Source: Desulfomicrobium escambiense DSM 10707 (GTDB lineage Bacteria; Desulfobacterota; Desulfovibrionia; Desulfovibrionales; Desulfomicrobiaceae). Taken from it: a stretch of 64,000 nucleotides of DNA. Shown here one piece after another: positions 1,121 to 2,353 of the stretch. The notes under the pieces are model-generated. The model was not told where the DNA came from. It was given only the letters and a program-made list of their open reading frames with translations, and made no database searches. The DNA is taken from positions 124,001 to 188,000 of the forward strand of contig NZ_AUAR01000006.1 of assembly GCF_000428825.1 (NCBI RefSeq). Direction: 5' to 3'. Made by a program: the position numbers and the translations under genes. Each line of letters opens with the position of its first letter. The first letter of the stretch is position 1.

Positions 1121-1240
1121 GCGCGCTCCGGGTTGCGGTTAGGTCTTGTCAAGACGCTACCACCCGCGATGCCCCAATACAAGCGTCGTTCGGAAATGCA
1201 CGACGCCCTGCGCCGGCCCATCCGGAAATAAGCCAGGTGT

Positions 1241-1269
1241 TTGACTGGCCGTTACACGGACGGTAGGTT
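1241..1269 (+). promoter_or_regulatory. Probable sigma70-type promoter for the TrmO-aldolase gene
   Basis: TTGACT at 1241-1246 and TAGGTT at 1264-1269, 17 bases apart, would start RNA near 1276, about 30 bases before the ATG at 1307. The -35 matches the consensus at five of six positions and the -10 at three. Assigned by eye. Confidence 0.5.
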
Positions 1270-1306
1270 CAGACTGACCAGCGAAAACATCCACCAAGGA
1301 CCGTAC

Positions 1307-2281
1307 ATGAACCCCAGCATCGTCGGCATCGTCCACTCCCACCTGCGCACCCGCGAGGAATGTCCCAAACACGGGGACACGGCCCTGCTCCCGGTCTGGA
1401 TCGAGATCATGCCCGAATTCGAACCGGCGGCCACGGACCTCCAGATCGGCGACGCCGTCGTCGTGCTGACCTGGATGCACCAGGGCGACCGCTCCGTGCT
1501 GCGCTGCCACCCCCGGGGCAACCGCGACCTGCCCATGCGCGGCATCTTCTCCACCCGCTCCCCGGACCGGCCCACGCCCATCGGCCTGCACAACGTGCGC
1601 ATCACCGGGCGCGAAGGTCTGCGCATGCAGGTCCATCCCCTGGAAGTCATCGACGGCACGCCCGTCATCGACATCAAGCCGGACAATTCCGCGGCCCCCG
1701 GCCGGGAGGAATTTCCGTCCCTGGTCAACCCGGACACCGGACGGGCCATCATCGAGGCGGGCCGCGACGGCTGGCTGCGCGGGCTCTTCGCCGGGTTCAA
1801 CGGCAACATCAGCGTGCGTCAGGGTTCCCGGGTGGTCATCACCGCCACGGGCAGCGCCAAGGGCCACCTTTCGCCCCGGGACTTGGCCGTGGTCGATCTT
1901 GAGAGCGGCGACGCCCTGTCGTCGGCGCAGGCCTCTTCGGAGCTGTCCGTGCACCTGGAAATCTACCGCAACCAGCCGGCGGCCCAGGCCATCGTGCATA
2001 CCCACCCCCCGAAGCTCATCGCCCTGTCCCTGCGCGGCAAGGGGTCCCTGCTGCAGTTGCCCCTCTACGAAGGGCAGGTCTTCGCCACCAAGCTGACCCG
2101 CATCCCATCCGAAATACCCGGCACGCCGGAACTCGGGGAATCCGCGGGACAGGCCGCCCGCTATTTCCAGGCCGTGTTCATGGACGACCACGGACTGGTC
2201 TGCTGGGGCGGAAGCATGACCCAGGCCCTGGGCCTGTCCGAAGAACTGGAGAGCCTGGCCGCCATCGCCCTGGCCCGCTGA
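1307..2281 (+). CDS. TrmO-like tRNA methyltransferase domain fused to class II aldolase/adducin domain
   Basis: 324 residues. Residues 1-130 match the TrmO/TsaA (UPF0066) beta-barrel, with the SAM-binding signature at about 79-97 (GIFSTRSPDRPTPIGL) and LEVIDGTPVIDIKP near 112-125. TrmO N6-methylates t6A37 of tRNA-Thr. Residues 140-324 are a class II aldolase/adducin domain: FNGNIS at 164-169, the catalytic-acid motif SSELSVH with Glu212, and the metal ligands His231 and His233 (HTHP) and His295 (DDHG). All expected ligands are present, so both halves look active. The ATG at 1307 was chosen because AAGGA sits at 1296-1300; a longer frame opens at TTG 1241, which is better read as the -35 box. 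The aldolase substrate is unknown. Confidence 0.85.
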   Translation: MNPSIVGIVHSHLRTREECPKHGDTALLPVWIEIMPEFEPAATDLQIGDAVVVLTWMHQGDRSVLRCHPRGNRDLPMRGIFSTRSPDRPTPIGLHNVRITGREGLRMQVHPLEVIDGTPVIDIKPDNSAAPGREEFPSLVNPDTGRAIIEAGRDGWLRGLFAGFNGNISVRQGSRVVITATGSAKGHLSPRDLAVVDLESGDALSSAQASSELSVHLEIYRNQPAAQAIVHTHPPKLIALSLRGKGSLLQLPLYEGQVFATKLTRIPSEIPGTPELGESAGQAARYFQAVFMDDHGLVCWGGSMTQALGLSEELESLAAIALAR

Positions 2282-2324
2282 GGGCGGAGCCGGGGCGATG
2301 GCCCCGGAAAGGACGCTTTTTTGC

Positions 2325-2353
2325 TTGCCAACGGAGCGCACGTCGTCTATTAA
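2325..2353 (+). promoter_or_regulatory. Probable promoter of the DEAD-box helicase gene
   Basis: TTGCCA at 2325-2330 and TATTAA at 2348-2353 are 17 bases apart. RNA would begin near 2360, giving a leader of about 180 bases before the helicase ATG at 2543. Confidence 0.5.

Follow-up and report, generated by a model that had tools for sequence, protein, structure and literature searches.

Introduction

TrmO (also YaeB or TsaA), the tRNA t6A37 N6-methyltransferase, is a class VIII SAM methyltransferase with a TrmO_N barrel, in which an arginine and a lysine bind the carboxylate of SAM. In the E. coli protein Arg92 and Lys136 are critical, the substitutions Q25A and D125A strongly lower the m6t6A level, and the C-terminal DPRxxY motif/domain is required (PMC4132733). 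Two homologs, AF0241 (2nv4) and RPA0152 (3okx), have been crystallized with SAM, and m6t6A was not detected in any archaeal tRNA analyzed, although YaeB homologs are common in archaea (PMC4132733).

Among the class II aldolases, the enzymes closest to the case described here are L-fuculose-1-phosphate aldolase (FucA) and DrdA/Ald2, the aldolase for 5-deoxyribulose-1-phosphate and 5-methylthioribulose-1-phosphate in the DHAP shunt. Arabidopsis DEP1, in which a class II aldolase-fold domain with 5-deoxyribulose-1-phosphate aldolase activity is fused to a phosphatase, is a precedent for a fused enzyme of this fold in the salvage of SAM by-products (PMC6079011). The partner domain of DEP1 is a HAD phosphatase of the same pathway, whereas the partner in the present protein is a SAM-binding barrel. 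No description of a TrmO-aldolase fusion was found in the literature. The fusion gene lies in a window of 64,000 nucleotides of Desulfomicrobium escambiense DSM 10707 (contig NZ_AUAR01000006.1, positions 124,001 to 188,000), to which all coordinates given without a locus name refer.

Results and Discussion

A Genuine Two-Domain Gene Found Within One Sampled Order

The open reading frame at 1307-2281 (plus strand) runs without interruption from ATG to TGA and encodes 324 amino acids, and Pfam recognizes only two domains in the protein. The TrmO_N domain (PF01980, E 4.9e-21, better than the gathering cutoff; residues 20-125, 1364-1681, plus strand) has RPA0152 (3okx, E 1.6e-20) and AF0241 (2nv4, E 3.3e-17) as nearest solved relatives, both of which differ from the fusion in being single-domain proteins that lack an aldolase. 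A linker (residues 126-146, 1682-1744, plus strand), delimited by the Pfam bounds and the GC3 scan, leads in the same frame directly into the class II aldolase domain (PF00596, E 3.6e-41, with a fold match; residues 147-322, 1745-2272, plus strand). The initial annotation had proposed exactly this combination, and had named a sequencing error joining two genes at about 1690-1730 as the event that would undo it. GC3 along the frame is 0.82-1.00 throughout, a break at 1690-1730 is absent, and no in-frame start codon is present between 1641 and 1800. In the compared pairs dN/dS is about 0.04-0.33 for the TrmO half and 0.06-0.23 for the aldolase half, and thus both halves are under purifying selection. 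A 394-amino-acid open frame on the opposite strand (1157-2341, minus strand) is most likely an artefact of the high GC content.

The joined frame is shared by each of the 16 Desulfomicrobium genomes listed, and across the order Desulfovibrionales it is present in about 84 genomes from 27 genera, with every one of the six sampled families represented. The class sample comprised 348 genomes, all of this one order, and 78 rows align over essentially the entire fusion; G204 and five genomes of the genus g26, in which the frames were found as two pieces or as fused by both Pfam searches, were added to the fused count. An error of sequencing or assembly is excluded by this recurrence. It would also have to account for the uniform GC3 and the selection on both halves, nothing in its favor was found, and we regard it as having a negligible probability. 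The Desulfomicrobium protein is therefore a true fusion with two intact domains in one frame. Beyond the order, no full-length fusion was found in a phylum sample of 395 genomes or among 72,556 plasmid records, so that the architecture is, as far as tested, confined to the order.

The C-Terminal Half Is a FucA-Type Class II Aldolase

The initial annotation had listed Glu212, His231, His233 and His295 as the aldolase residues, and all four are present exactly as named. Glu212 (1940-1942, plus strand), the catalytic acid/base, occurs in every row of the alignment except one unrelated paralog. The metal ligands His231 and His233 (VHTHPP, 1997-2005, plus strand) and the third ligand His295 (DHGL, 2189-2191, plus strand) are invariant, and so is Asn167 (1805-1807, plus strand), the equivalent of FucA Asn29, in all aldolase rows. 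Across the fusion family these residues, together with Ser210 and Ser211, vary little or not at all. The modeled aldolase part superimposes on fuculose-1-phosphate aldolases with Z 24-26 and an rmsd of 1.7-2.1 over about 182 residues. The C-terminal half is therefore a class II aldolase of the FucA type, with the Pfam family, the fold, the three metal histidines, the catalytic glutamate and the asparagine all in place.

The substrate is much less sharply defined. FucA (Z 25-26) and DrdA (6btd, Z 24.5) differ by only about one Z unit, which amounts to a tie, and at the sequence level FucA, YgbL, DrdA and others resemble the aldolase half to much the same degree, so that the subfamilies are unseparated. 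The fusion shares the fold, the metal ligands, the Glu and the Asn with FucA; unlike in the case of FucA, no fucose genes were seen at its locus, and its scores are below the FucA equivalog cutoffs. With DrdA/Ald2 it has in common the class II fold, the histidine triad, the catalytic Glu and the presence of MtnA, but it is not clustered with mtnK/mtnA, it is joined to a SAM barrel, the identity is about 29%, and its substrate is a predicted one.

A fuculose-type aldolase, a 3-oxo-tetronate-4-phosphate decarboxylase or a methylthioribulose-1-phosphate dehydratase (MtnB) might thus be considered instead, in view of the similar scores with several class II subfamilies and a best NCBIfam match, PRK08333 "aldolase", that is itself below its cutoff. 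However, all named class II equivalogs score far below cutoff, including MtnB (TIGR03328, 71.2 bits versus 137.05), and partner genes of those pathways are absent from the locus. The canonical pathway downstream of MtnB requires an oxygen-dependent step, which is unlikely in a sulfate reducer. We therefore regard these other substrates as rather improbable.

The TrmO-Like Half Belongs to a Clade Without Characterized tRNA Methyltransferases

The genome encodes two TrmO_N proteins, namely the fusion half and a separate TrmO of 164 amino acids without a DPRxxY domain (L001:1405-1899, minus strand, contig C11), the gene of which adjoins that of an aldehyde-oxidoreductase-type 2Fe-2S subunit. A maximum-likelihood tree divides the family into clades A and B with a support of 100/96. 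Clade A comprises the separate copy along with the proteins of P. aeruginosa and H. influenzae, while the fusion halves, the single TrmO proteins from the same locus, RPA0152 and the proteins of family f44, which lies outside the order, are found on the opposite side of the tree, where AF0241 is the sequence closest to clade A. The TrmO part of the fusion model has a low confidence (58-91), and the fold searches listed matches to the aldolase part only.

The initial annotation had taken this half for the tRNA m6t6A37 methyltransferase, and this assignment was not borne out. It retains some appeal, because the fusion just passes TIGR00104 (95.2 versus a cutoff of 93.25), because Arg84 and Lys124, which correspond to the pair of SAM residues that are most critical in the E. 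coli enzyme (PMC4132733), are retained, and because several members of the order without a clade-A TrmO keep clade B. However, apart from its position in clade B, the fusion lacks the DPRxxY domain, and only two of the four SAM residues are identical, as Gln25, Arg92, Asp125 and Lys136 of E. coli correspond to His22, Arg84, Glu113 and Lys124. The change from Asp to Glu extends across most of the order, and in every Desulfomicrobium sequence the Gln25 position is occupied by His, Tyr or Ser and the Asn of RPNP is replaced by Thr (Thr90, RPTP, in the window). Moreover, the clade-A copy resides in the same genome, and a further point against the assignment is that no m6t6A was detected in the archaeal tRNAs analyzed (PMC4132733). 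An ordinary t6A37 methyltransferase with the aldolase as an unrelated passenger is thus quite unlikely.

Decay of the Desulfomicrobium TrmO half was considered in view of these replacements and was rejected, as dN/dS stays low; a changed function is possible. In the genus g58 (L066, L067) His replaces the essential SAM-binding Arg of the TrmO half, and SAM binding may be lost. Outside the phylum, alphaproteobacterial plasmids (L193, L194, L197) carry clade-B-like TrmO genes within operons for ABC transporters of the iron/molybdate type, without an aldolase, and one of these operons also contains moeA and a DUF2478 gene. This setting suggests a role that is unrelated to tRNA, and therefore the role of the family is probably not uniform. 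From its phylogeny, its residues and the purifying selection we conclude that the N-terminal half is a maintained SAM-family barrel outside the clade of the characterized tRNA methyltransferases.

Fusion, Loss, and Probable Shuffling at the uvrD-thiL Locus

Most fusion genes lie after uvrD and thiL (ThiL equivalog 240 bits, cutoff 184). According to the UvrD, ThiL, TrmO and aldolase profiles, the gene that follows encodes in most genera the TrmO-aldolase fusion, in others the aldolase alone (G155, G099, G111, G230, G347) or TrmO alone (G269, G260, G276, G298, G284, G227, G234, G215 and others). Loss of activity of one domain in close relatives had been named initially as a finding against the fusion; loss of a domain was encountered at the same locus, but in other genera, and the Desulfomicrobium genomes listed all keep the joined frame. 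In Desulfomicrobium thiL is missing from the site; in G005, a member of this genus, the fusion follows directly after uvrD, and the two are separated in the window by genes for a SulP permease and a universal stress protein on the opposite strand.

ThiL itself is fused to either half in other genera. A single ThiL-TrmO frame is present in all three genomes of the genus g18 (the fusion loci are L078, L234, L237 and L236; G066 is interrupted by a contig end), and a single ThiL-aldolase frame in all six genomes of the genus g35 that were tested (L226, L233, L239-L242). No description of either fusion was found in the literature. UvrD and ThiL, though equally adjacent, are fused in none of the 27 loci at which both were seen.

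In the ThiL tree, the fused and TrmO-only states are interspersed; parsimony requires eight changes, at least two of which are forced by well-supported branches, while the ThiL-aldolase and ThiL-TrmO fusions each have a single origin. This pattern fits an old TrmO-aldolase fusion, followed by repeated loss of one half. All three pairwise combinations of the ThiL, TrmO-like and aldolase domains occur as fusions at one site, where the domains are also found alone, and this suggests an operon that undergoes shuffling.

Another class II aldolase is encoded in 15 of 15 genomes with TrmO alone at the locus, versus a second one in 8 of 45 genomes that contain an aldolase of the fusion family (p 9e-9; at the genus level 11 of 11 versus 8 of 33, p 1e-5; kinship among the genomes is ignored in both values). 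Therefore, these lineages seem to retain the aldolase function, and of the two halves TrmO is the easier to dispense with. The replacement enzymes of the 15 genomes are 13 long proteins with an HGHP motif and two FucA-like proteins. The long aldolases in the genomes that lost the aldolase half (L153-L165, L167) comprise about 300-400 amino acids and have a long N-terminal extension.

A Plausible Context in SAM By-Product Salvage

The initial annotation had guessed at a link between the fusion and the salvage of SAM by-products. For the aldolase half this link is plausible. MtnA is encoded in the genome (410 bits, cutoff 279), a class II aldolase other than the fusion is absent, and searches for MtnK and for a RuBisCO-like protein found neither. 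Among the enzymes found in the genome, the fusion alone is thus of a kind that is known to use the MtnA product, and from this gene content the aldolase half is probably the only consumer of that product, of the DHAP-shunt type. Several points call for caution, however. MtnA is present in 77 of the 80 phylum genomes, with or without a fusion-like aldolase, so that its co-occurrence is uninformative as support for a salvage role; the genome lacks a true MTA phosphorylase and contains only PNP I (78 bits for MTAP versus a cutoff of 275), and the sequence cannot fix the substrate. PNP I following a deaminase is a possible entry into the shunt.

The mtnA gene is located on a different contig from the fusion, beside der and genes for a 2-oxoacid:ferredoxin oxidoreductase (L152:5947-10160, minus strand). 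Genes for an oxidoreductase of this kind also lie directly beside the fusion-like aldolase of G715 (L201:5502-8579, plus strand). A proximity of TrmO and mtnA in genomes of the family f33 was dismissed as unconvincing, as the gene models are unclear.

Outside the order, three genomes of the family f44 contain overlapping genes in the reversed order, first the aldolase and then the clade-B TrmO, with a CDP-alcohol phosphatidyltransferase gene in front and without thiL at the site. The respective loci are L172-L175. The best solved relative of the f44 aldolase is the 5-deoxyribulose-1-phosphate aldolase DrdA (105 bits, 3e-29). The pair is only suggestive, as it represents one lineage and as chance adjacency somewhere in the sample has a roughly estimated probability of about 5-10%. 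A neighboring phosphorylase was not counted in favor of MTA salvage: its gene in L175 comes after UbiD-, UbiX- and UbiA-like genes, which makes an enzyme of the futalosine pathway to menaquinone more likely.

Adjacency or Functional Coupling

As a whole, we lean slightly towards a protein of two functional and separable domains, a shunt-type aldolase and a clade-B barrel with a SAM-dependent role of its own, which were merged by adjacency. The aldolase would be a metal-dependent enzyme of the FucA/DrdA type that splits the MtnA product (5-deoxyribulose-1-phosphate, 5-methylthioribulose-1-phosphate or both) into DHAP and an aldehyde and thereby disposes of radical-SAM and MTA by-products. The barrel would bind SAM and methylate a target that is, or at least may be, different from tRNA t6A37. 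The fusion would have arisen by the merging of neighboring genes that were tightly packed in an operon, and its benefit, if any, would probably be co-expression or co-localization, not substrate channeling. Several results weigh against this reading, namely the near-universal presence of MtnA, which says little, the absence of a true MTA phosphorylase and of MtnK, the undifferentiated similarity of the aldolase half to several subfamilies, the distance between mtnA and the fusion, and the disregard of phylogeny in the replacement statistic. In addition, the formation of all pairwise fusions without UvrD-ThiL could exceed what is expected from chance adjacency.

This pattern of fusions keeps the option of coupling alive. 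ThiL, clade-B TrmO and the aldolase might form a functional module acting on linked metabolites, e.g., in the disposal of 5'-deoxyadenosine from radical-SAM thiamine enzymes, with the fusions as physical or regulatory coupling, or a SAM-sensing barrel might control the aldolase. Each of the three pairwise fusions is consistent within its genus, the equally adjacent UvrD and ThiL stay separate, and the f44 genes overlap in the reversed order. However, each half persists without the other, TrmO alone stays after the loss of the aldolase, the alphaproteobacterial relatives occur in transporter operons without an aldolase, and f44 is a single lineage that lacks thiL at the site. To our knowledge, ThiL and UvrD have no chemistry in common, which also speaks against a module. 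Altogether we consider such coupling unlikely, and still more doubtful is the reading that the pairwise fusions reveal a working module, encoded by uvrD-thiL-trmO-B-aldolase, of ThiL, the clade-B barrel and the aldolase, for example in thiamine-linked 5'-deoxyadenosine disposal, in which the barrel would have a new non-tRNA SAM activity or would sense SAM.

With its three pairwise fusions and its reciprocal domain losses, the locus is a natural experiment that can show if fused genes are functionally coupled or were just neighbors in an operon. The annotation of the N-terminal half as "TrmO" is likely wrong, as it belongs to a clade without a proven function, relatives of which are carried by archaea with no known m6t6A. 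In many sulfate reducers the fusion contains the one class II aldolase that is visible, and thus it likely provides the last step in the salvage of SAM by-products.
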